A stretch of 20,047 nucleotides of DNA, from positions 1 through 20,047 of the IMG/VR virus record IMGVR_UViG_3300010885_001527, one strand, 5' to 3'. This document shows positions 3,824 to 19,883 of the stretch, piece after piece. The stretch is from a virus. The notes beneath the pieces were generated by a model. The model was given only the letters and a program-made list of their open reading frames with translations. It was not told the DNA's origin and did no database searches. Within the stretch, counting starts at the first letter, position 1, and every line of letters begins with the position of its first letter. Both the position numbers and the translations under genes were made by a program.

Positions 3824-5478
3824 TGCACACGCCCATCCTTGGTTCGGCCTATGTTGTTCGCAGCATCAATGCTGCAAACAACAGGATGGTCAACCTTTTT
3901 CCAGAAATTATTCCTGAGGGTGGACTAGAGCCTGGGTTTCTTAACCGCGCTCCGGGGCTTAGTTTGCTCGCTACGGTTGGCACCGGACCAATCCGGGGCT
4001 TGTGGACGTTTGGAGGCATCGGCTATGTAGTCAGCGGGGGCGGACTCTACAGCCTTACCACGGCGTATGTATCCACTTTGCTAGGTTCGATAGGGGGTAC
4101 TGGCCCGGTCAGCATGAGCGACAACGGCACTCAGTTGTTTATCGCAGCAGACGGGCCGGGTTACATTTACAACAGCAGTACGGCGGTGTTTGCCCCGATC
4201 ACTGATGTTGACTTTGCTGGCGCGTTGGTAGTTGGCTACCTGGACGGCTACTTTGTTTTTATCCAGCCCGATAGTCAAGTGTTCTGGGTGACGCAACTGT
4301 TGGACGGCACATCGGTTGACCCGCTTGACTTTGCCAGTGCTGAAGGTTCGCCTGATGGCTTGGTCAGCATGATCATTGACCACGGGCAGATTTGGTTGTT
4401 TGGCACCAATTCAGTCGAGGTTTGGTACGACTCTGGCGCTGCCGACTTCCCTATGACCCGCATCCAAGGCGCGTTCAATGAGATAGGTTGCGCGGCGACG
4501 TTCTCTGTTGCAAAGTTGGACAACGGCATTTTCTGGCTAGGCGCAGATGCGCGGGGCCAAGGCATCGTTTATCGGGCGAATGGCTACACCGGCACTCGCG
4601 TTAGTACGCACGCCATCGAGTACGCGATTGCTCAGTACGGCGACATTAGCAATGCCGTTGCCTACACCTACCAGCAAGAAGGCCACGCCTTCTATGTGCT
4701 GACATTTCCATCTGGAAATGCTACTTGGGTTTACGATGTGTCTACCCAAGCGTGGCACGAACGGGCTGGGTTTGACAACGGCGTATTCATGCGCCACAGG
4801 TCGAACTGCCAGATGGCGTTCAACAACCAAATTGTGGTTGGCGACTTTGAGAACGGTAACATTTACAAGTTTGACTTGGATGTGTACGCTGACAATGGCG
4901 ATGTCCAAAAATGGTTGCGGTCTTGGCGGGCGCTGCCAACAGGACAGAACGACTTCAAACGCACGGCACAGCACACTCTTCAACTCAATGCAGAGACAGG
5001 TGTAGGGCTTGGCATTACTCCTGCGCAAAGTGCTGAAGGTATCCTAACGGAACTGCTCAACGTCCCACCGGCAGGGCCAAGCTACCAATTGATTGCTGAG
5101 TTCAATTTGGAATATTTGGTAACCGAATCTGGCAGTGAAATTACCACTGAAGCTGGCGACGGTTTTGAGTCATTGGTGACGTTTGCCTATAACGGGCCGG
5201 ATATTGCTGGCTATGAAATAGTCACTGAATCAGCCCCCGAAACTCCAGGATACGATCCGCAGTGCATGTTGCGCTGGAGCGATGACGGCGGTCACACTTG
5301 GTCCAATGAGCATTGGGCCAGCATGGGCAAGATCGGTGAGTACGGCTACCGTACTTTCTGGCGTCGGTTGGGCATGACGGTTAAGTTGCGTGACCGGGTG
5401 TATGAAGTTAGCGGCACTGCCCCGGTAAAGGTGAGCATTATGGGCGCTGAGTTGATGGTGAGTCCAACGTCAAGTTGA
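3823..5478 (+). CDS. P22 gp10-like packaged-DNA stabilisation (tail hub) protein
   Basis: P22 gp10 joins the gp4 ring to the tail needle and seals the packaged DNA. The 551-residue protein shows the gp10-type beta-propeller-like repeats: the start PILGSAYVVRSINAANNRMVNLFPE, then WTFGGIGYVVSGGGLYSL, DGYFVFIQPDSQVFWVT and FGTNSVEVWYDSG. The end has LRWSDDGGHTWSNEHWASMG and GYRTFWRRLGM, which are family hallmarks. It is longer than P22 gp10 (472 residues). The excess is an inserted segment at about residues 398-476 containing YLVTESGSEITTEAG and YEIVTESAPET. The start codon overlaps the stop of the upstream gene, indicating coupled translation. Position after gp4 agrees with P22 order. Confidence 0.9.
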   Translation: MHTPILGSAYVVRSINAANNRMVNLFPEIIPEGGLEPGFLNRAPGLSLLATVGTGPIRGLWTFGGIGYVVSGGGLYSLTTAYVSTLLGSIGGTGPVSMSDNGTQLFIAADGPGYIYNSSTAVFAPITDVDFAGALVVGYLDGYFVFIQPDSQVFWVTQLLDGTSVDPLDFASAEGSPDGLVSMIIDHGQIWLFGTNSVEVWYDSGAADFPMTRIQGAFNEIGCAATFSVAKLDNGIFWLGADARGQGIVYRANGYTGTRVSTHAIEYAIAQYGDISNAVAYTYQQEGHAFYVLTFPSGNATWVYDVSTQAWHERAGFDNGVFMRHRSNCQMAFNNQIVVGDFENGNIYKFDLDVYADNGDVQKWLRSWRALPTGQNDFKRTAQHTLQLNAETGVGLGITPAQSAEGILTELLNVPPAGPSYQLIAEFNLEYLVTESGSEITTEAGDGFESLVTFAYNGPDIAGYEIVTESAPETPGYDPQCMLRWSDDGGHTWSNEHWASMGKIGEYGYRTFWRRLGMTVKLRDRVYEVSGTAPVKVSIMGAELMVSPTSS

Positions 5479-5479
5479 T

Positions 5480-6544
5480 ATGGCAAACATCACTCAAATT
5501 CCAGCGCCAAGGGTTGTTTTCACGGAAGACGGGCAAATCACGACCCAATGGTTTCGCTGGCTCAACAACGTCTACACCATCACTGGATCGGGCCTTGGCA
5601 TCACGCCGGTAATCAACGGTGGTACGGGACTAGGTACTATCCCGACTAACGGCCAACTGTTGATCGGCAACGGCACGGGCTACGCGCTGAATACGTTGAC
5701 CGCTAGCACCGGCATCACGGTTACCAATGCCGCAGGCGCTATCACGGTCACCAACAGCTTGCCCGATTTGACGGTGGTGTTGACGGGCGGAGGCACAACG
5801 GTTGTAACAGGAACGTACCCTAGTTTTACGATTACCAGCAACGATGCTTTTGTAGGTACGGTGACTAGCGTTGCGGCCTCTGTACCGGCATTTTTGGCAG
5901 TAGCGGGCAGTCCAATTACTACCGCAGGCACGTTGGCGATTACTTTGTCAGGTACGGCGCTGCCGGTCCTTAACGGCGGTACTGGAGTCACAACCAGTAC
6001 CGGCACTGTAAGCGTCGTACTTTCAACCTCACCAGTTCTTATCACCCCGGACCTTGGCACGCCTTCAGCAGTTGTGTTGACCAATGCAACAGGCACAGCC
6101 GCTAGTTTGACTGCTGGTCGTGTCACTACCAACGCCAACCTTACCGGTGCAGTTACAAGTACTGGTAACGCCACAATCCTTGGGTCATTCACTACGCTTG
6201 CTCTTTTCACAGCACTGACTACCAAAACTGGTACTGGTTTGGCTGTATTTGCTACAAGCCCGGTATTGACTACCCCGTCGCTTGGCACGCCCACGCTTCT
6301 TGTCTTGACTAGCGCAACAGGTTTGCCGCTTACGACTGGCGTATCGGGTATCCTTCCCGTAGCTAACGGCGGCAATGGACTAGGCGCAGCGTATACGGTG
6401 GCCACCCTTCCAGCAGCGGGTACACAAGGCCGCAGATCGTGGGTGACAAATGCGCTAGCGCCAACATTTCTAGCCGCTCCTGTTGGTGGTGGTGCGGTGG
6501 TTTGCCCGGTGTTTGACAACGGCACTGCCTGGGTGGTTGCGTAA
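5480..6544 (+). CDS. Tail fibre- or needle-like repeat protein
   Basis: The 354-residue protein begins ITQIPAPRVVFTEDGQITTQWFRWLNNVY, a short N-terminal module common in phage appendage proteins (a proline-containing strand, then a W/F-rich helix). The rest is Gly/Thr-rich repeats: (V/L)NGGTG at several places, GTIPTNGQLLIGNGTGYALN, and two copies of TSPVL.TP.LGTP...LT.ATG. The end, TFLAAPVGGGAVVCPVFDNG, is a typical C-terminal cap of such proteins. It starts two bases after gp10, the position of the tail needle gene 26 in P22. It could be a needle or a receptor-binding fibre, but no enzymatic (endosialidase or lyase) domain is seen. The shared TPxLGT motif links it to the product of 2948-3823. 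Confidence 0.75.
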   Translation: MANITQIPAPRVVFTEDGQITTQWFRWLNNVYTITGSGLGITPVINGGTGLGTIPTNGQLLIGNGTGYALNTLTASTGITVTNAAGAITVTNSLPDLTVVLTGGGTTVVTGTYPSFTITSNDAFVGTVTSVAASVPAFLAVAGSPITTAGTLAITLSGTALPVLNGGTGVTTSTGTVSVVLSTSPVLITPDLGTPSAVVLTNATGTAASLTAGRVTTNANLTGAVTSTGNATILGSFTTLALFTALTTKTGTGLAVFATSPVLTTPSLGTPTLLVLTSATGLPLTTGVSGILPVANGGNGLGAAYTVATLPAAGTQGRRSWVTNALAPTFLAAPVGGGAVVCPVFDNGTAWVVA

Positions 6545-9383: not shown

Positions 9384-11011
9384 TGGCAACAAACCCGTTT
9401 GATCAATTTGACGCGCCGCAAGCCAATTCTTTTGACCAATTTGACGCAGCGCCAATTAAGACCGCAGCCCAACGCCAAGTGCCAAGCTTTCTAACGCAGC
9501 TAGGGCGAGGCGCTGCTTCGCTGGCCGACGTTACGGTCGGCGGCGTGTTGCCTGCAATCGCACAGCAAGTGGGCTACCCGTTGGCGCGGGTGGGCCGCAC
9601 GCCAGAAGAAGCTCAAGCCATGACCCGGAACATGGTTAGTGCAGTTGAGTCGCCTTTTGGCAAAGCCTTTGGGGTCACCGACACGCCTGAATACAAGCAA
9701 GAGGCTACCCGCCAGCTATTGGATTTTGTTGGTCAAAATTTTCAGAAAGGTGCTAAATGGATTGCGGACAACACCGGCCTTCCGCAGTCTGATGTTGAAA
9801 ACATGTTGGGCACCGCCACACTTGCAGCACCCGCTGTGGGCCGAGCGGTTCAACGAACGGTTGCGCCTGTGGTTGAGCGCACGGTTGTTGCCGCAAAAAT
9901 GCCGTTTGAGCAGCAAATACAGGCCAAACGTGAGCGTCAATCGCTAGAAGATTACGCACGCGGTCCGCAGTTGGACGCAGCCGCCGAAGCGCAGCGTTTA
10001 AAAATTGCTCTTAACCCAACTGACATTGAATCTACCGTAGGCACAAGATTGACCTCAATGGCGGCTGGCCCACGTGCTGCTGCTGTTTTGGCAACGGCCA
10101 ACAAAAACCAAGTTCGCAACATTGCGTTGAAAGAAATGGATTTGCCGCGTACATCTCAACTTGATGGCGGCACCGCGTTTAGCCAAGCCCGCGCTCAACT
10201 AGCCGAGCCTTACAACCAAGTCAAAAATTTGCCTATCCAACAGGCTGATGACGCAATGGTTCAACGGCTTGAAGCGTTACGCGCCGATCTAGATGTGATC
10301 GGAGCTAAAGAATACGCGCCTGCCATCAGCAAGATTGTTGACGATGCTATTGCAAAGACGCAAACTGGACTAACCGGCGAAAAACTGCTAAAGAACATTA
10401 GCGTTCTGCGTGAGCGCGCACGCAAGACGTACAACAACAAATCGGCTACTACCGAAGCGTTGGACATTGCCGACACCAACCTTAAAGTGGCGACCGAGTT
10501 GGAGTCGATGATTGACAACAGCATCTTCAACCCAAAGCTGCTTAATGAATTTCGTGATGCGCGTCAAAAAATGGCTCGCTCATATGCGTATGAGGGCGCA
10601 ACTGACTTCAACACCGGCATTGTAGATGTCAGCAAACTTGCCCGTATAACATCAAAAAACAACGCGCTGACTGGCGACATTGCTTCGCTAGGTAAGATTG
10701 CGGGTAACTTTCCAGACGTATTCAGTTCACAGGCCACACCCGGTTTTTTTACCGCGCCTCGTTTAAGCCGTTCTGGACCAGGGGGCGCGGCAGGCGCGTT
10801 ACTCGGTTCGCCGTTTGGTTTGACCGGCTCCATCTTGGGCGGTGTGCTGGGCGGCGCAACGGCTGAAGGTTTGGGTGCGTTAGCCGCACGCCGCATAGCA
10901 TCTCCGGGTTACCAAGCTGGTTTGAAATTGCGCGACATGCGTATTCCAGTCAATCAGTTGGCCGAGTCAATGCAACCGATTCCGCAAAACCAAAACGCAA
11001 TGGCACCGTAG
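9383..11011 (+). CDS. Putative ejection/internal virion protein, P22 gp16 position
   Basis: The 542-residue protein starts with two short repeats, NPFDQFDAP (residues 4-12) and NSFDQFDAA (residues 15-23), then a long Ala-rich helical region. Around residues 455-500 there is a Gly/Ala-rich hydrophobic stretch (GGAAGALLGSPFGLTGSILG and following) that resembles a glycine-zipper membrane segment, fitting a protein that must cross or sit in the host inner membrane during DNA injection. P22 gp16 (609 residues) is the equivalent by order and size. The ATG shares one base with the upstream stop. No lytic transglycosylase motif is visible. Confidence 0.65.
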   Translation: MATNPFDQFDAPQANSFDQFDAAPIKTAAQRQVPSFLTQLGRGAASLADVTVGGVLPAIAQQVGYPLARVGRTPEEAQAMTRNMVSAVESPFGKAFGVTDTPEYKQEATRQLLDFVGQNFQKGAKWIADNTGLPQSDVENMLGTATLAAPAVGRAVQRTVAPVVERTVVAAKMPFEQQIQAKRERQSLEDYARGPQLDAAAEAQRLKIALNPTDIESTVGTRLTSMAAGPRAAAVLATANKNQVRNIALKEMDLPRTSQLDGGTAFSQARAQLAEPYNQVKNLPIQQADDAMVQRLEALRADLDVIGAKEYAPAISKIVDDAIAKTQTGLTGEKLLKNISVLRERARKTYNNKSATTEALDIADTNLKVATELESMIDNSIFNPKLLNEFRDARQKMARSYAYEGATDFNTGIVDVSKLARITSKNNALTGDIASLGKIAGNFPDVFSSQATPGFFTAPRLSRSGPGGAAGALLGSPFGLTGSILGGVLGGATAEGLGALAARRIASPGYQAGLKLRDMRIPVNQLAESMQPIPQNQNAMAP

Positions 11012-12181: not shown

Positions 12182-12564
12182 TCGGTCTTGACGCTATCCT
12201 TGGGATCGGCGGCAAGCTGATCGACAAGCTGATCCCCGATCCCGTTGCCCGAGATGCGGCACGGTTGGAGCTGCTCAAGCTGCAACAGTCGGGCGAGCTA
12301 GCGGTGATAACCGCTCAGACTGAGATTAACAAGGCAGAAGCCAGCAACGCCAATGTGTTTGTCAGCGGCTGGCGTCCAGCTATCGGCTGGGTCTGTGCGT
12401 TGGCGTTGGGGTACCAGTACCTAGCCCGACCGCTGATGATGGCTTTCATGCCCGCGCTGTCCTTCCCTGGCCTTGATGACAATCTTTGGCAGTTGATGAT
12501 GGGTATGTTGGGTCTGGGCGGGCTGCGGACGTTTGAGAAGACCCAAGGCGTTGCGGCAAAGTGA
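12178..12564 (+). CDS. Holin of the three-transmembrane (GTA/3TM) superfamily
   Basis: Holins form holes in the inner membrane that time lysis and let the endolysin out. The 128-residue protein starts with an amphipathic helix (IGKLIDKLIPDPVARDAARLELLKL region), then has the characteristic block FVSGWRPAIGWVCALALGYQ, a second hydrophobic segment (PLMMAFMPALSF) and the ending LWQLMMGMLGLGGLRTFEK. SGWRP..GWV and GMLGLGGLRT.EK are hallmarks of the 3TM holin family (PF11351 type). It overlaps the endolysin start as GTGA, coupling the two lysis functions. Confidence 0.9.
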   Translation: MIGLDAILGIGGKLIDKLIPDPVARDAARLELLKLQQSGELAVITAQTEINKAEASNANVFVSGWRPAIGWVCALALGYQYLARPLMMAFMPALSFPGLDDNLWQLMMGMLGLGGLRTFEKTQGVAAK

Positions 12565-12980
12565 ACTTGTCACCGCACTTCACGCTTGCTGAGTTGACGG
12601 TAACGTCCCACAGGACGCTAGACAACTCACCAACTCAAGCCGTAGTCGCTAACCTGACCCGGTTGGCTGAGTTTCTTGAGACAGTCAAAGCTACGCTAGG
12701 CGGTAAGCCAATTATGGTCACCTCGGCGTATCGCTCCAAGGCCGTCAATGACGCCGTAGGCAGCAAAGACTCATCACAGCATAGGTTGGGCTTGGCAGCA
12801 GACTTCCGCGTGCCTGGGATGACGCCTGACGCCGTGGTGAAGGCGTTGCTTGCGCTGCCCTATGACCAGATCATCAGAGAGTACGACGCCTGGACGCATA
12901 TCAGCATTGCCGACACGCCCCGGCGTCAGGCGCTGATTATTGACCGGCAGGGCGTTCGAGCATACCCACCGCTTTCATAA
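12561..12980 (+). CDS. Endolysin, M15-family zinc peptidase
   Basis: The 139-residue enzyme should cleave peptide cross-links of peptidoglycan. It matches the M15 (VanY/D-Ala-D-Ala carboxypeptidase-like) fold: the FTLAELTVTSHRTLDN start, SAYRS at 55-59, the zinc ligands H74 and D81 in SSQHRLGLAADF, the likely catalytic E107, and the third ligand H113 in WTHIS. It has no signal peptide or cell-wall binding domain, so it depends on the holin just upstream. Translation starts at GTG 12561, which overlaps the holin stop (GTGA). The last 44 bases overlap the end of a convergent gene on the other strand. Confidence 0.92.
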   Translation: MNLSPHFTLAELTVTSHRTLDNSPTQAVVANLTRLAEFLETVKATLGGKPIMVTSAYRSKAVNDAVGSKDSSQHRLGLAADFRVPGMTPDAVVKALLALPYDQIIREYDAWTHISIADTPRRQALIIDRQGVRAYPPLS

Positions 12981-13164
12981 TCTCTGCGATTACAGCGGCG
13001 AGCGTGTCGAGTTCCGCTTGCAAACGCGCAATCGTCAGCGCGTCATCGCACTGCGGGCAGTGTTGGCCTAGCTGGCCGTGGACGCAGATGTCTGCCATGT
13101 CTTCCATCGCTTCCTCGTGCTTCGCCATGTTCATGCACCATTCCTTTGTAAATTCAATCTTCAT
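12937..13164 (-). CDS. Small phage protein with CxxG..C..C cysteine motif, convergent with endolysin
   Basis: The 75-residue protein starts MKIEFTKEWCMNMAKHEEAM, a type of N-terminus found in small phage accessory proteins. It continues with CVHGQLGQHCPQCD, three cysteines and two histidines that could hold a zinc ion, and ends in a helical segment (LTIARLQAELDTLAAVIAEI). The ATG is preceded on its strand by GGGGGA, a good ribosome site. Its C-terminal codons run into the endolysin gene from the opposite side. It is the last gene of the leftward operon and lies just past the attC-like site. Function unknown. Confidence 0.65.
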   Translation of the reverse strand: MKIEFTKEWCMNMAKHEEAMEDMADICVHGQLGQHCPQCDDALTIARLQAELDTLAAVIAEIMKAVGMLERPAGQ

Positions 13165-13182
13165 CGAGTCTTCCCCCGTTGT

Positions 13183-13241
13183 GGCCTAACCTTTCGTTCC
13201 ACTGGACGCCTGACGGCGCCAGTGAACTCATACGTTAGGCC
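13183..13241 (+). other. attC-like integron recombination site (site 1, 59 bases)
   Basis: All four attC boxes can be read on the + strand. R'' is GCCTAAC (13184-13190) and R' is GTTAGGC (13234-13240); they are perfect inverse complements fitting RYYYAAC and GTTRRRY, and one extra base pair extends them to 13183 and 13241. The 5-base and 6-base spacers CTTTC and TCATAC do not pair. L'' GTTC-c-ACTGG (13196-13205) pairs with CCAGTGAAC (13219-13227), leaving C13200 extrahelical. After a second unpaired base, A13206, CGCC/GGCG closes a TGAC loop. The extrahelical bases lie on the 5' half, as in the well-known aadA attC, which fixes the orientation as rightward. At 57 bases from R'' to R', it is at the short end of the attC range. 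Confidence 0.85.
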
Positions 13242-13572
13242 CCAAGGCCGCAGTCAGGCGCTTCACCAGCTTGCCGCAGTTATCGGCCCAATCTGCTTCC
13301 ATCGTGTATTCCTTGCCGTCGTTCCTCACCCACAGGTTTGCCATCTTGAAGCCGTACAGGCCATCGTGCGTCAGCAGGTAGTGCATCGGCGGGCAGGCCG
13401 TCTTACTGGTGGCAATCATTGAAGCCAGGATTTCGGGCGCGTCTTTGGCAGCTTCCCGCAGCGCCGTCACCTCGTCGCGCAGGCGCCAGTTCTCGTTGCC
13501 AAGTTCCACCACGCAATCCAGGCACCAGCCCTCGGCGGTGTGCGGGCAGTTCATCAGGTGCGGTACTGTCAT
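13228..13572 (-). CDS. Small protein with N-terminal Cys/His motif and coiled coil, inside the attC-bounded unit
   Basis: The 114-residue protein has CPHTAEGWCLDC near the N-terminus (C9, H11, C17, C20), a likely zinc knuckle. A charged helix follows (ELGNENWRLRDEVTALREAA), then a domain with YLLTHDGLYGFKMANLWVRN. The AGGAG ribosome site six bases before the ATG is strong. Its last codons and TGA stop (13228-13230) lie inside attC site 1, in the spacer between the L' and R' boxes. It runs against the orientation of both attC sites, as a minority of integron cassette genes do. The sequence type resembles small phage accessory proteins; function is unknown. Confidence 0.7.
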   Translation of the reverse strand: MTVPHLMNCPHTAEGWCLDCVVELGNENWRLRDEVTALREAAKDAPEILASMIATSKTACPPMHYLLTHDGLYGFKMANLWVRNDGKEYTMEADWADNCGKLVKRLTAALGPNV

Positions 13573-13686
13573 TTAGCTCTCCTACTTGGTCACGTTGGGG
13601 CCTAAACCATCGCTCAACTCGGACTTGCCGCCATCAAAGTTTTCATTCATGGAATCTCCTTTGCGGCAAGCCGCTTAGCTAAATCG
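13235..13686 (+). mobile_element. Candidate integron-type gene cassette (452 bases)
   Basis: IntI recombination cuts attC after the G of the R' box (G^TTRRRY). Taking the two R' boxes at 13234 and 13686 as cut points gives a unit beginning TTAGGC at 13235 and ending with the G of attC site 2 at 13686, the standard linear form of an integrated cassette. It contains one attC and one gene-sized frame (13228-13572, reverse), plus a micro-frame inside the attC. No integrase gene (intI) or attI site is visible in the window. The boundaries follow from the attC boxes; that the unit moves is inference. Confidence 0.65.
13582..13650 (-). CDS. 22-residue micro-frame starting in the attC site 2 loop
   Basis: On the - strand, AGGAGA (13655-13660) stands four bases before an ATG at 13650. 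The frame reads MNENFDGGKSELSDGLGPNV then TK and stops at TAG 13582. The TAG overlaps the AGGAG that serves the 114-residue gene starting at 13572, so ribosomes ending here would be placed to start there. It may be a leader peptide that couples translation, or simply chance. Only the strong ribosome site and the coupling geometry support it. Confidence 0.35.
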   Translation of the reverse strand: MNENFDGGKSELSDGLGPNVTK

Positions 13687-13692
13687 TTAGGC
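13600..13692 (+). other. attC-like integron recombination site (site 2, 93 bases)
   Basis: R'' is GCCTAAA (13600-13606, one mismatch from RYYYAAC) and R' is GTTAGGC (13686-13692). L'' GCT-c-AA (13612-13617) pairs with TTAGC (13675-13679), leaving C13615 extrahelical. CGG-a-CTTGCCGC (13620-13631) pairs with GCGGCAAGCCG (13663-13673), leaving A13623 extrahelical. The 31-base terminal loop (13632-13662) is the variable part. Extrahelical bases are again on the 5' half, and the right arm CTTAGCTAAATCGTTAGGC closely follows the usual attC right arm. Orientation is therefore the same as site 1. The R' box supplies the TAA stop of the leftward gene at 13687-13938. Confidence 0.82.
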
Positions 13693-13938
13693 AACCTTGG
13701 CTGGCCCCATGTCCACTAAGTAAATGGCGTTCTTGTACATACGCGACTTCAACAGCCGGACGTGCCGCAGCTTTCCCTCTGCCTTTATGATTGCGTCATC
13801 TCCAACACGTCGAGGCGCGCCGCCGACAAAAATTGGCGCGTCATCTTTTTCTTCCGCAACTGGCACCAAACCAAAACCGGGAATGTAAACGCAAAACCTG
13901 TTTGCGCGCCTTCTAAAAAACTGCTTTCTTATCATCAT
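13687..13938 (-). CDS. Small basic protein of unknown function ending in an attC R' box
   Basis: The 83-residue protein begins MMIRKQFFRRRANRFCVYIP, strongly basic, then has a G/P-rich middle (GFGLVPVAEE, FVGGAPRRVG) and a charged C-terminal part (KLRHVRLLKSRMYKNAIYLV). Two adjacent ATGs exist. The second, at 13935, has better spacing from the GAGGAA ribosome site and may be the real start. The first 26 bases overlap the end of the upstream gene. The stop codon TAA is part of the GTTAGGC box of attC site 2, so the natural C-terminus may have been replaced when the element arrived. I do not recognise the family. Confidence 0.6.
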   Translation of the reverse strand: MMIRKQFFRRRANRFCVYIPGFGLVPVAEEKDDAPIFVGGAPRRVGDDAIIKAEGKLRHVRLLKSRMYKNAIYLVDMGPAKVA

Positions 13939-14098
13939 TTCCTCGCTTTCCGTTTAATGCCCGGTACGCATTCATCGCGTCCCTAAGATCACCGCGCAGT
14001 TGCTCAATCTCATCTTGCTGCTGTTGAAGCCGCAAGTAAGCCTCAGACGCAAACTTGTCTAGCGTGTGACGATCCCATTCTGCAAAAGTAGGCGTCAC
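13913..14098 (-). CDS. 61-residue helical phage protein
   Basis: The product has WDRHTLDKFASEAYLRLQQQ followed by DEIEQLRGDLRDAMNAYRAL, a long charged helix likely to form a coiled coil. Small proteins of this kind are common in phage early operons and have no known role. The GTG start at 14098 is chosen because it overlaps the upstream TGA as GTGA, the same junction used elsewhere in this operon. A TTG twelve bases upstream (14110) is possible but has no ribosome site. Confidence 0.65.
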   Translation of the reverse strand: MTPTFAEWDRHTLDKFASEAYLRLQQQQDEIEQLRGDLRDAMNAYRALNGKRGNDDKKAVF

Positions 14099-14313
14099 GG
14101 GTGCGGGCAATCGTCAGGGACAAAAGCCAAGCAATGAACCGCTGCGTACCTTCGTGTGGTTTTCTGCCAGCGGTCAACGTAAACATCTGGCATCCCCTTC
14201 ACGGAATGCGAAATTTGTGACCGCTCTACATTCAGCTTGGCCGCAAGCTCTTTTGAAGTTAGACCATCTGCCGCTTGCGCCAACAAGGCTCTAATTCTTG
14301 CTGAAATTACCAT
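14095..14313 (-). CDS. Small helix-turn-helix DNA-binding protein
   Basis: The 72-residue protein contains an apparent winged-helix/HTH core at residues 5-40: IRALLAQAADGLTSKELAAK, then LNVERSQISHSVKGM. The pattern 'LTSKELAAKLNVERSQISHSVKGM' without its ends is a typical turn between two helices, with S/Q/S at the recognition positions. The C-terminal third may form the wing. GAGGAT seven bases before the ATG is the ribosome site. It could regulate the divergent early promoters at 16356-16437, but a single small HTH protein deep in an operon could also serve replication. Role inferred, fold fairly likely. Confidence 0.65.
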   Translation of the reverse strand: MVISARIRALLAQAADGLTSKELAAKLNVERSQISHSVKGMPDVYVDRWQKTTRRYAAVHCLAFVPDDCPHP

Positions 14314-14701: not shown

Positions 14702-14837
14702 TTTTTTCTTCCAGTTCGGTGATATGGGCGGTCACCTTGTTGTAAGCCCGTGACGCGCTGTTGTGCGTCCGGGTGCGAATCAAAAGTTCGGCCTGAGCTG
14801 CTTTAAGTTTGGCCTTCATTTGTGTAAGTCTGTTCAC
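14673..14837 (-). CDS. 54-residue coiled-coil protein coupled to the helicase
   Basis: The frame starts with GTG at 14837, overlapping the helicase stop as GTGA, and has an excellent GGAGG ribosome site seven bases upstream within the helicase gene. The product is MNRLTQMKAKLKAAQAELLI, RTRTHNSASRAYNKVTAHIT, ELEEKIGILEKVSK, a fully helical, charged sequence likely to form a coiled coil. An internal ATG at 14819 exists but lacks a ribosome site. It fills the only gap between the helicase and the next small gene. Function unknown. Confidence 0.65.
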   Translation of the reverse strand: MNRLTQMKAKLKAAQAELLIRTRTHNSASRAYNKVTAHITELEEKIGILEKVSK

Positions 14838-16114
14838 TTCAACGCCTCCAATGCAATGTCAGAAACGGCGCGTTTGTCATGGAGCGCCGTCCATATCTTT
14901 TCGTCAACCGTCTTGTTCGCCACCATGACGTAGCACCACACATCGTGCCGCTGGCCGCTGCGGTGTAGCCGACCAATAGTCTGCTCGTACAGTTCCAGCG
15001 ACCAAGGCAGCGACAAGAAGATAATCTTGCTGCCGCCGTGTTGCAGGTTCAGACCGTGGCCCGCCGACTTAGGGTGGGCCAGCAACAACTCGACCTTGCC
15101 AGCGTTCCAGCGTTCAATGGCGTCGGGTTCGTCCAGCGTCACGGCACGGGGGTAGCGGCGCTTGAGTTCGGCCAACTCCTCCCGGTAGGTGTACGCAATG
15201 ATGGTGTTGGCATGTTGGTTTTCGGCCAGCAGGTCGTCCAGGGCGTCGAACTTGGTCGTGTCAAACCAGACCGTTGAGTCGCCGTAAACGAACCCGGACG
15301 CCATCTGTTGCAGCTTGGCCGTGACTACGCCAGCGTTGACGGCCACAGCCTGCGCGTCGGGGAACTGCGCTACAAACTCAGTCTTCATGGCGTCGTATGG
15401 CTTGCGGTTGACCATATCAAACCGCACGGGGACCGTGTGCAACTCCGGCAGTTTGTCCTTGTACTCACCCGGCTCCAGCACAAACGTAGCAGGTTTGATG
15501 CGCTCCATGACCTGCTCAAGCGCACCTGGGCGCGGCTCCCACTGGTTGAAGTCCTTGTTGACCAAGAAGAAGTACTGCTGTTGGAACGCGCCCTTGCTGC
15601 GGCCCAACAGCGACTGATCGACGATCTTGCATTGGCCGAATACGTCCTCCAAGCCGTTGCTGGTAAAAGAACCCGTCAAGCCCCACCGTACAGGGCAGTC
15701 CAGCATCTTGTTGAGCGCCTTGAACCTAGCCCCGCTAGGGTTCTTGAGCCGGGTCAGTTCGTCAAACACGATACCGTCAAAACTTAGGGTGGGCAGGGTC
15801 TGCAAATTGTCGTAGTTGGTCACTACCACATCACTGTCTGACCGAAACGCCGCCTCGCGCTGTTTAGGCGTCCCTACAGCCACGCTAACGCGCAGGGACG
15901 GTGCCCACAACTTGGCCTCAGTCGGCCATACGCTGACGGCCACACGCTTAGGTGCCAGTACGAGGAACCGGCAGGCATGGCCGCTGGTCAACATGGCCTG
16001 CATAGCCGTCAACGTGATGGCGGTCTTGCCTGCGCCGACCGGCGCTAAAATCATGGCGCGGTCGTTGGCGAACAAGAAGTCCGCCGCCTCATTTTGGTAG
16101 GGACGTAAATTCAT
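14834..16114 (-). CDS. SNF2-like superfamily 2 DNA helicase
   Basis: This 426-residue protein is an ATP-driven DNA translocase or helicase, probably acting in phage replication or recombination. Counting from the TTG at 16117, the motifs are Walker A APVGAGKT (25-32), motif Ia LVLAPKRV, motif II DELT (119-122) in place of DEAH, motif III GLTGS (146-150), motif V SAGHGLNLQ (351-359) and motif VI QTIGRLHRSGQ (379-389) with its arginines. The last is diagnostic for SNF2-type phage helicases. The ATG at 16114 is preferred over the TTG at 16117 because AAGGA lies eight bases upstream. It overlaps the VRR-NUC gene by 26 bases and is coupled downstream by GTGA. Confidence 0.92.
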   Translation of the reverse strand: MNLRPYQNEAADFLFANDRAMILAPVGAGKTAITLTAMQAMLTSGHACRFLVLAPKRVAVSVWPTEAKLWAPSLRVSVAVGTPKQREAAFRSDSDVVVTNYDNLQTLPTLSFDGIVFDELTRLKNPSGARFKALNKMLDCPVRWGLTGSFTSNGLEDVFGQCKIVDQSLLGRSKGAFQQQYFFLVNKDFNQWEPRPGALEQVMERIKPATFVLEPGEYKDKLPELHTVPVRFDMVNRKPYDAMKTEFVAQFPDAQAVAVNAGVVTAKLQQMASGFVYGDSTVWFDTTKFDALDDLLAENQHANTIIAYTYREELAELKRRYPRAVTLDEPDAIERWNAGKVELLLAHPKSAGHGLNLQHGGSKIIFLSLPWSLELYEQTIGRLHRSGQRHDVWCYVMVANKTVDEKIWTALHDKRAVSDIALEALK

Positions 16115-16355
16115 CAACTTGTTCCTTCGTCCACAGCACTGTGTACTTCTGCTTCAACCGCGCCATGTCGGCGGCGAAGACCTTCTGGAGCGCGGACAGA
16201 CGCCCGCCGATGGTCTTAACCTCCACGAACCAGACCACGCCGTCAGGCAGGACGATGATGCGGTCAGCTACACCGCCCACGCCGCGCCACTTGTACGCTA
16301 TGCCGCCGAGCGCCTTGACGCGCTTGACGAGGTAGGCTTCGATGTGTTTTTCCAT
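16089..16355 (-). CDS. VRR-NUC domain nuclease
   Basis: VRR-NUC proteins are compact PD-(D/E)XK endonucleases, some of which cut branched DNA. The 88-residue protein consists of this domain only: EKHIEAYLVKRVKALGG, then KWRGVGGVADRIIVLPDG with the catalytic Asp, and WFVEVKTIGGRLSALQ with the E-x-K and the conserved Q. The ATG at 16355 is chosen; the TTG two codons upstream adds only two residues and has no better ribosome site. It is the first gene of the leftward operon and is followed by the SNF2-like helicase, a pair seen together in many phages. Confidence 0.88.
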   Translation of the reverse strand: MEKHIEAYLVKRVKALGGIAYKWRGVGGVADRIIVLPDGVVWFVEVKTIGGRLSALQKVFAADMARLKQKYTVLWTKEQVDEFTSLPK

Positions 16356-18212: not shown

Positions 18213-19883
18213 ATGATTTGGGTTGACTTTGAAACCCGTAGCGCCTGCGACCTAAAAGTCGCGGGCGTCTACAACTACGCGCAAGACCTAACGACCGAGG
18301 TGCTGTGCATGTCCTACGCCGTCGATGACGGCGAGGTCTTGACTTGGCTCCCCGGTCAGCCGTTGCCCGACCTGACCGGCCACCGCATCATGGCCCATAA
18401 CGCCGCTTTCGAGCGGCTGATCTGTTGGTACGTCTTGCAGGTCAACATCCCACTGGAATCGTTTTATTGCACCGCCGCGCAGGCCCGTGCCAACTGTGCG
18501 CCTGGGTCGCTGGAGGACGTGGGCCGGTTCATGGGCGCGACGATGAAGAAGGACCACCGGGGCGCGGCCCTTATCCGCAAGATGTGCATCCCACCCTACC
18601 AAGAGTCGGCTGAGTTGACCGCCGAGATGGTGGCCTACTGTGAGCAGGACGTGCGCGCCATGCGGGCGATCAGTCAGGCCATGCGCCCACTGTCGGACGA
18701 GGAACTGGCCGACTACCATGTCAACGAGCGCATCAACGACCGTGGCGTTCTGGTCGATGTGCCGCTCTGCCATGCAGCCGTGTCGTATGCCGCCGCAGAG
18801 GCCACTGAGATCGCCGAGATCGTCAAGGAGGTATCGAGGGGTGAGCTTGTCTCTGTGCGGTCGCCCAAGATGCGCCAGTGGGTTTGGGATCGTGTCGGCC
18901 CCGAGGCCCAAGCGTTGATGATTAAGGACGATAAAGTCAGCATCGACAAGACCGTTCGCGCCAACCTGCTGAACTGCGACGGAGTGCCGCCTGACGTGCA
19001 GGAGATTATCCAGTGCGCCGACGACCTGTGGGCGTCGTCGGTCGCCAAGTTCAGCCGCTTGGCCCAACTGGCCGACGTTGAGGACAACCGCGTCCGAGGC
19101 GCGTTCGTGTTCGCTGGCGGCAGCGCCACGGGCCGTGCCAGCAGCTACGGTGCCCAAGTCCACAACTTTACCCGCAAAACCGCAAAGACCCCCGAGGACG
19201 TTCGGGCCGCAATGTGCAGGGGCCACGCCATTGTCCCCAAGTACGGCAAGCGCGTTACAGACGTTCTTCGGGGGATGCTGCGCCCCGCTCTGATTCCCGC
19301 CAAGGGACATCAGTTTGTCGTGGCCGACTGGTCGTCGATTGAGGCCAGAGTCAACCCGTGGCTGTCCGGTACGGGTCAGGCCAAGCTGAATGTTTTCGAG
19401 TCGGGCCTCGACCCCTACATCGTCAACGCCTCCGGTACGTTCCAGCGTAGCTATGCCGATATCAAGGCCGACTACGACCGTGACGGCGAGTCCTCGCAGC
19501 GCCAGATTGGCAAGGTCCAAGAATTAGCCTGCGGTTTCGCAGGCGGTGTGGGCGCGTTCGCGTCTATGGCCCGAATCTACAACGTGCGCCTGTCTGAGTC
19601 CGAATCTAAGCGCATGGTGGACGCCTGGAGGCGCAACAATCAGTGGGCGGTCGGCTTCTGGCAGCAGCTTGAGCAGCAGTATACGCGGGCCATGCGAAAC
19701 AGGGGTGAGGAGTTCACTGCTGGGCGCGTTACCTACCTGTTTGACGGTCGCCATCTCTGGTACGCTATCCCTTCGGGCCGGGTGCTTTGCTACCCTTTTG
19801 CCCGCCTGGAAGAAGACGGCATTAGCTATGCCAAGGCAGCTTGGAAGCCTGCTCAGGATGCCACCGAGTGGCCCCGCGCTTGA
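18213..19883 (+). CDS. Family A DNA polymerase with 3'-5' exonuclease, interrupted by in-frame TGA
   Basis: This is the replicative polymerase. The exonuclease domain has D5/E7 (VDFETRS), HNAAFER (62-68) and YCEQD (142-146), a DEDDy site. The polymerase domain has motif A VVADWSSIEARV (D372) and motif B RQIGKVQELACGF (R430, K434). The frame stops at TGA 19881-19883 after 556 residues, before motif C. The same frame resumes immediately afterwards with [13 protein letters not shown] and motif C, so the listed stop is premature relative to the family. The ATG at 18213 is the first codon after an in-frame stop that is compatible with the exonuclease motif at residue 5; no clear ribosome site is seen. 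A product ending here would lack a catalytic aspartate and should be inactive. Confidence 0.9.
   Translation: MIWVDFETRSACDLKVAGVYNYAQDLTTEVLCMSYAVDDGEVLTWLPGQPLPDLTGHRIMAHNAAFERLICWYVLQVNIPLESFYCTAAQARANCAPGSLEDVGRFMGATMKKDHRGAALIRKMCIPPYQESAELTAEMVAYCEQDVRAMRAISQAMRPLSDEELADYHVNERINDRGVLVDVPLCHAAVSYAAAEATEIAEIVKEVSRGELVSVRSPKMRQWVWDRVGPEAQALMIKDDKVSIDKTVRANLLNCDGVPPDVQEIIQCADDLWASSVAKFSRLAQLADVEDNRVRGAFVFAGGSATGRASSYGAQVHNFTRKTAKTPEDVRAAMCRGHAIVPKYGKRVTDVLRGMLRPALIPAKGHQFVVADWSSIEARVNPWLSGTGQAKLNVFESGLDPYIVNASGTFQRSYADIKADYDRDGESSQRQIGKVQELACGFAGGVGAFASMARIYNVRLSESESKRMVDAWRRNNQWAVGFWQQLEQQYTRAMRNRGEEFTAGRVTYLFDGRHLWYAIPSGRVLCYPFARLEEDGISYAKAAWKPAQDATEWPRA

Follow-up and report, generated by a model that had tools for sequence, protein, structure and literature searches.

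A putative integrase-less integron array in a tailed-phage early operon and the antisense orientation of cassette genes in phage arrays

An attC pair at the end of a phage early operon

The stretch of DNA analyzed here (the window, 20,047 nucleotides) is a 20-kb fragment of the genome of a tailed phage of freshwater type. Its late and lysis genes are on the + strand and end with an endolysin gene, and an early operon that includes an SNF2-type helicase gene runs on the − strand from about 16361 to 12937. Three small − strand ORFs and two hairpins lie between the endolysin gene and the gene at 13913–14110. The features of this region are as follows.

12561..12980, + strand: endolysin gene, convergent left flank of the insert (PHROG 894, E 1e-32)
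12937..13164, − strand: ORF of 75 aa beyond attC 1, overlapping the endolysin gene at its 3' end
12960..13950: insert carrying the array, ~0.99 kb, missing from seven related phages
13184..13240, + strand: predicted attC site 1, 57 nt (attC model R1, 54.0 bits, E 2.5e-12); R'' GCCTAAC 13184–13190, L'' CACTGG 13200–13205, L' CCAGTG 13219–13224, R' GTTAGGC 13234–13240; extrahelical A13206; predicted crossover 13234^13235
13228..13572, − strand: cassette gene of 114 aa (RBS AGGAG; coding model score 25)
13235..13686, + strand: cassette unit from R' crossover to R' crossover, 452 bp; its inner gene is antisense to attC polarity
13582..13650, − strand: possible small ORF of 22 aa, putatively coding (RBS AAGGAG; MNENFDGGKSELSDGLGPNVTK)
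13600..13692, + strand: predicted attC site 2, 93 nt (R1, 23.7 bits, E 1.7e-4); R'' variant GCCTAAA 13600–13606, L'' 13620–13631, L' 13663–13673, R' GTTAGGC 13686–13692; extrahelical A13623 within L''; predicted crossover 13686^13687
13687..13938, − strand: ORF of 83 aa; its stop codon, TAA, reads as the crossover TTA of attC 2 on the + strand
13913..14110, − strand: final conserved gene of the early operon (65 aa), bordering the insert on the right (tblastn matches in relatives)
14834..16117, − strand: SNF2-type helicase gene of the early operon, phage backbone (Pfam SNF2-rel_dom, E 1.2e-15)

We scanned the window with R1, a covariance model with R and L stems derived from the attC sites of integrase-flanked arrays at 80 bacterial loci. 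The two hairpins are its two top matches in the 20-kb window with filters off, and both score higher on the + than on the − strand (54.0 versus 11.6 bits for site 1 and 23.7 versus 6.9 bits for site 2). As a positive control R1 yields 102 matches across 82 integron-bearing loci, and as a negative control its top score across 827 kb of related phage DNA is 17.1 bits (E 0.37); the E-values are rough because the calibration was short. The R'' and R' heptamers of site 1 fit the consensus RYYYAAC...GTTRRRY perfectly and pair with each other, and the R'' box of site 2 has one mismatch to RYYYAAC, with which the R''/R' criterion is still met. Both sites also satisfy the length and score criterion (57–142 nt, covariance-model score above background). 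Predicted folds place A13206 and A13623 at equivalent positions on the R''–L'' arm and leave the spacers largely unpaired; the extrahelical bases of this arm determine the choice of attC strand, and the crossover occurs at R' (PMC2727003). Folded as DNA, site 1 has z = −6.0 and −6.7 on its two strands, with none of 200 shuffles as stable, and site 2 has a z of about −2.9. An Rfam search found nothing. Judged by model, structure, and polarity, both hairpins are attC sites; their activity in recombination is inferred.

The initial annotation had recognized two attC-type sites with R'', L'', L', and R' boxes and would have been refuted by a covariance model without significant hits; both sites match R1 at the coordinates it gave, on the same strand and with significant scores. 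Its description of a pair in a single orientation, with 359 nt between the sites, bounding a unit at 13235–13686 is confirmed for exactly that unit, and the gap holds the 114-aa gene. The location that it gave, inside a phage early operon, can be refined to the 3' end of the operon, before the convergent endolysin gene.

The pair meets the criterion for a CALIN, namely two attC sites of the same orientation with a gene between them and no intI nearby. The criterion for a complete integron is unmet, and the earlier statement that no integron integrase is seen stands: the 20-kb window contains no intI and no match to TIGR02249. No attI was recognized in the same 20 kb. A standard cassette, in which the gene follows attC polarity, is also not what we observe, given that the genes are on the − strand and the attC sites on the + strand, an inversion that the initial annotation did not remark on. 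The stop codon of the 114-aa gene lies just past the cassette boundary, within attC 1, and the coding model supports no competing + strand gene in this region. We found neither a known family nor a homolog for the 114-aa gene, no homologs of the 75-aa ORF among 80 relatives or in phage records, no match to the insert or its proteins in phage records, and no match to the 114-aa and 83-aa proteins in IMG/VR. The cassette genes match no Pfam or PHROG family and have no clear match among 274 phage cassette proteins. No distal attC was found for the 83-aa ORF, and the 75-aa and 114-aa ORFs run past cassette or insert boundaries; the array may therefore be degraded. The putative 22-aa ORF starts inside the variable loop of attC 2, and its end, LGPNV(TK), echoes the LGPNV at the C terminus of the 114-aa ORF, mostly through other synonymous codons.

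Related phages with and without the insert

The helicase has more than 590 related viral loci in IMG/VR. Among the best 80 of these relatives, seven (L013, L015, L016, L018, L019, L020, and L022) have an empty site, at which both sides align with the window and about 12960–13950 is missing, and these establish the insert. None of the three insert ORFs has a homolog in any of the 80 relatives; the flanking early genes do have homologs. An R1 scan of the whole contigs of 46 relatives detected no attC. The junctions lie near 12965 on the left and 13950 on the right, and the last bases of the endolysin gene are replaced. The GC content of the insert is 0.557, and that of the phage is 0.559 and 0.561. 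From these junctions we could not reconstruct how the array might have entered an ancestral secondary site by a clean R'-to-R' insertion. A more distant relative (G020, locus L186) also carries an array at this locus and in this polarity, with three attC sites and other cassette genes. G020 is a phage with genes for terminase, portal, major head, and DNA polymerase. Its array is flanked by the early operon on one side and by convergent lysis genes on the other, and one of its attC sites is 82% identical to site 1.

Palindromes shared by all related phages as fixed, terminator-like hairpins had been named as an outcome that would refute the attC reading; because the insert is missing from seven relatives, the sites are not fixed terminator hairpins. 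A comparison of related phages for the presence or absence of exactly the 13235–13686 unit had also been proposed, and its result is partial: among close relatives of the window the only variation seen is presence or absence of the whole ~0.99-kb insert, and variation at single cassette boundaries comes from other phages.

Cassette orientation, integrases, and exchange in phage arrays

Bacterial cassette genes normally run along attC polarity. In phages, cassette genes antisense to attC are the rule, an arrangement that is new as far as we found. We collected 49 IMG/VR contigs with a strict attC pattern, regardless of their genes, in which R1 finds 267 attC matches. Scored with a pooled codon model, the non-redundant cassette genes of these phage contigs are 146 antisense to 13 sense, and only three of the 40 contigs whose cassettes could be scored, namely L170, L185, and L207, are sense. 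The 19 long contigs, which include the window, have 134 antisense and 3 sense genes, and the intI-bearing viral contigs 155 and 4. The bacterial control is 39 sense to 4 antisense by longest ORF and 21 to 3 by the pooled model; diverse bacterial chromosomal integrons, at 53 sense to 13 antisense, differ from the intI-bearing phage contigs with Fisher p = 4e-34. The depositor annotation of phage MW202573, with attC sites on the − strand and genes on the + strand, is inverted too. In 67 of 256 antisense phage cassette genes, the stop codon TAA is the complement of the first TTA of the cassette and ends one base inside the crossover. The layout that we propose for the inverted class (array at the 3' end of the early operon, antisense genes, convergent late genes) is met by the window, G020, G018, MW202573, and others.

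These counts have limits, since the viral contigs are mostly metagenomic fragments, the gene calling is home-made, and R1 spans part of attC diversity. R1 detected no usable attC sites in phages Rctr41k, Shewanella M16-3, PH101, and P12002L and only one weak site in phage TJE1; given these misses, the model covers mainly attC sites of the class 1/beta-proteobacterial type and the counts are lower bounds. Two other counts were set aside: the first, by longest ORF (83 sense to 108 antisense), was noisy and is superseded by the pooled codon models, and one with codon models from single short loci (41:104) was noisy and misassigned some arrays. Sense cassette genes in the bacterial style occur on viral contigs L170, L185, L207, and L325; L207 belongs to an isolate genome that encodes an intI of its own, and in L325 the intI/attC geometry is also opposite. 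Contigs G012 (L218, L219) and G006 (L251) have two or three attC clusters each in opposite orientations, with genes antisense to the local attC polarity in each cluster.

Some of these phages encode integron integrases. Two of the 49 contigs, G018 and G043, have a full-length integron integrase beside the array (428 and 427 bits, cut-off 265), and a third is found in G041, the sense-oriented isolate that carries L207. G018 also carries major head, tape-measure, and tail-fibre genes and a separate phage integrase gene; its IntI is 52–54% identical to bacterial IntI, and phage and bacterial IntI proteins have the additional domain and catalytic residues in common. Relatives of these integrases occur in 86 viral stretches. 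We examined 80 of them, 49 of which have attC sites visible to R1, and the intI/attC geometry is standard in these 49 with one exception, L325. Typically, the early genes are followed by the cassettes and then by intI, in many cases with a second tyrosine recombinase after it, before the convergent late genes begin. In a quick tree, the viral IntI proteins fall mostly into two viral-only clades (18 and 32 rows, SH-aLRT 91 and 97) that adjoin class 1-type IntI proteins, and the viral label changes 8 times, versus 45 for shuffled labels. No tyrosine recombinase was found in ten intI-less, attC-bearing contigs of at least 30 kb. The suggestion that the phage may rely on a host integrase therefore survives only in part: none is encoded in the window, but many such phages encode their own, and a host enzyme is one option only. 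In G025 (L245), a truncated integron integrase at 18372–18734 takes the position of the intact intI and adjoins an inverted array of eight attC sites, an apparent decay toward an integrase-less array. In phage Rctr41k (KX853513, L410), an integron-integrase relative at 4680–5678 has the same direction as all its neighbors; R1 found no attC there, and the attC sites may be of another type.

Cassette exchange is shown in other array phages. The near-identical phages L212 and L192 differ by two events compatible with R' crossover, one of them confined to 14 bp that contain G^TTAGGC. Of 149 starts of blocks shared between otherwise different phages, 27 lie within 10 nt of an R' crossover and 3 at R'', against a random expectation of 3.5% (about 5) for each, and this excess at R' supports the attC polarity of the model. 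Cassette-exact differences and shared cassettes that start at R' indicate that phages carry and shuffle cassettes; the proposal that they take up, carry, or shuffle them is upheld by these phages, which differ by exact single cassettes. One cassette-exact deletion between the nearly identical phages L208 and L215 crossed at the R'' end and not at R'. The crossing, at 4796–4815 of L208 and at 9999–10018 and 10372–10391 of L215, is at GCCTAACCC, and this event may be homologous recombination.

Most of 131 phage cassette proteins are unknown. The cargo recognizable with Pfam and PHROG comprises five or six DNA methyltransferases, three or four Lar restriction alleviation proteins, one Acb2/Tad1 hairpin protein, and zinc ribbons. 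Three of these classes (Lar, methyltransferases, and Acb2/Tad1) are established kinds of counter-defence protein; that the unknown genes of the window serve counter-defence is only an inference.

Origin of the arrays and relation to known integrons

Clusters of attC sites and some integrons in phages are already known, and the inversion is new as far as we found. Qi et al. 2023 (PMC9892861) described CALINs and integrons in 21 phages, with the same kind of integrase-less attC cluster (MW202573 included) and with complete integrons in temperate phages of Vibrio, E. coli (P1), and Shewanella; five of six tested phage attC sites recombined with attI1 via IntI1. The initial annotation took a phage-borne attC pair to suggest that phages can take up, carry, or shuffle cassettes; attC clusters in phages had been published in 2023, and the bare claim is not new. 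MW202573 shares with the window the locus at the operon end, beside an M15 peptidase gene, and the gene inversion, but that study says nothing of genes inverted relative to attC, and here we find more than 80 viral contigs with integron-integrase relatives and arrays that are almost uniformly inverted. Phage arrays have the attC sequence, structure, polarity, and R' crossover of bacterial chromosomal and class 1 integrons and share their canonical geometry, in which intI is transcribed away from the array. They differ in that the cassette genes are inverted, pointing toward intI and on its strand, and in that transcription of the cassettes comes from a phage operon and not from a promoter near attI; intI is also missing from the window array. 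Spirochaete integrons (PMC9668308) are another departure from the standard layout, with a reversed intI gene, whereas phage arrays keep the standard intI/attC geometry and have reversed cassette genes. We found no description of inverted phage integrons in the open-access literature (a scope without bioRxiv preprints and without most subscription papers), and these arrays are a widespread class that is apparently undescribed.

We consider it very likely that the window holds a small integrase-less integron array of a phage-specific kind, in which two attC sites of + polarity separate − strand genes so that the phage early operon would read through them. The mobile unit is predicted to extend from one R' crossover (G^TTAGGC) to the next, with its attC on the side that faces the early promoter. 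Integron-type recombination adds, removes, and exchanges these units in related phage arrays, and many of the phages concerned have their own integron integrase as the last or near-last gene of the array operon. Inheritance or acquisition by this route is the probable origin of the window array, and the integrase would now be supplied in trans by a co-infecting phage, a prophage, or a host integron; both the source of the integrase and recombination at the window attC sites are inferred. The orientation in which a cassette enters is fixed by attC polarity (PMC2727003), and an early operon read toward intI would express only inverted genes, so selection would keep inverted cassettes; this scheme is an inference from orientation and layout. 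More broadly, we think it probable that tailed phages have an integron system of their own, an early-operon array read toward a terminal intI, with inverted cassettes and a separate cassette pool that includes counter-defence genes, and that the window is an integrase-less array of this system. Several observations weigh against our explanation: site 2 is the weaker site with a mismatched R'', the three window ORFs have no known homologs from which to read a cargo function, the array may be degraded, there is no intI and no recognized attI in what is only a genome fragment, and the indel between L208 and L215 lies at R''.

The insert could instead consist of ordinary bacterial cassettes, taken from a host chromosomal integron by IntI secondary-site or illegitimate recombination without any phage-specific system. 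The window attC sites do resemble proteobacterial ones, phages with host-derived integrons, for example of Vibrio, were reported by Qi et al. 2023, and L207 fits the host-derived type. Bacterial cassettes, however, are mostly sense (39:4 and 53:13) and phage arrays almost uniformly antisense, the GC content of the insert equals that of the phage, and cassettes are common to several phages, and we regard this origin as unlikely. There is far less to support the idea that the hairpins are fixed transcription terminators or RNA-processing signals that merely resemble attC. They do sit in intergenic gaps and fold well on both strands, but the match to attC extends beyond hairpin shape to sequence and polarity (54 versus 11.6 bits on the reverse strand of site 1), the hairpins are missing from all relatives examined except G020, and there is no T-run downstream of site 1 as it is transcribed. 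An artifact, whether from the way genes were called or from the convention by which the attC model assigns strands, seems an equally improbable cause of the antisense arrangement. In its favor, counting naively by longest ORF gave a milder bias, and some arrays were misassigned when codon models had been trained on a single short locus; yet the identical model and caller yield mostly sense genes in bacteria, the depositor-annotated MW202573 agrees with the inversion, proteins of antisense cassette genes have Pfam and PHROG matches, the stop codon falls exactly on the crossover TTA in 67 of 256 genes, and attC polarity is backed by recombination junctions.

If the phage-specific reading is true, phages run a mirror-image version of the integron, known as a bacterial gene-collecting platform, and have a direct mechanism for the fast assembly of counter-defence repertoires; their recognizable cargo includes anti-restriction and anti-CBASS-type genes. 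Because attC polarity sets the orientation of insertion, bacterial and phage cassettes would be silent in each other's platform, and expression in one kind of platform only would explain separate phage and bacterial cassette pools. One bacterial genome (G312) has an integron (L385) with mixed cassette genes, six sense and six antisense, which possibly contains phage-type cassettes or a prophage array.
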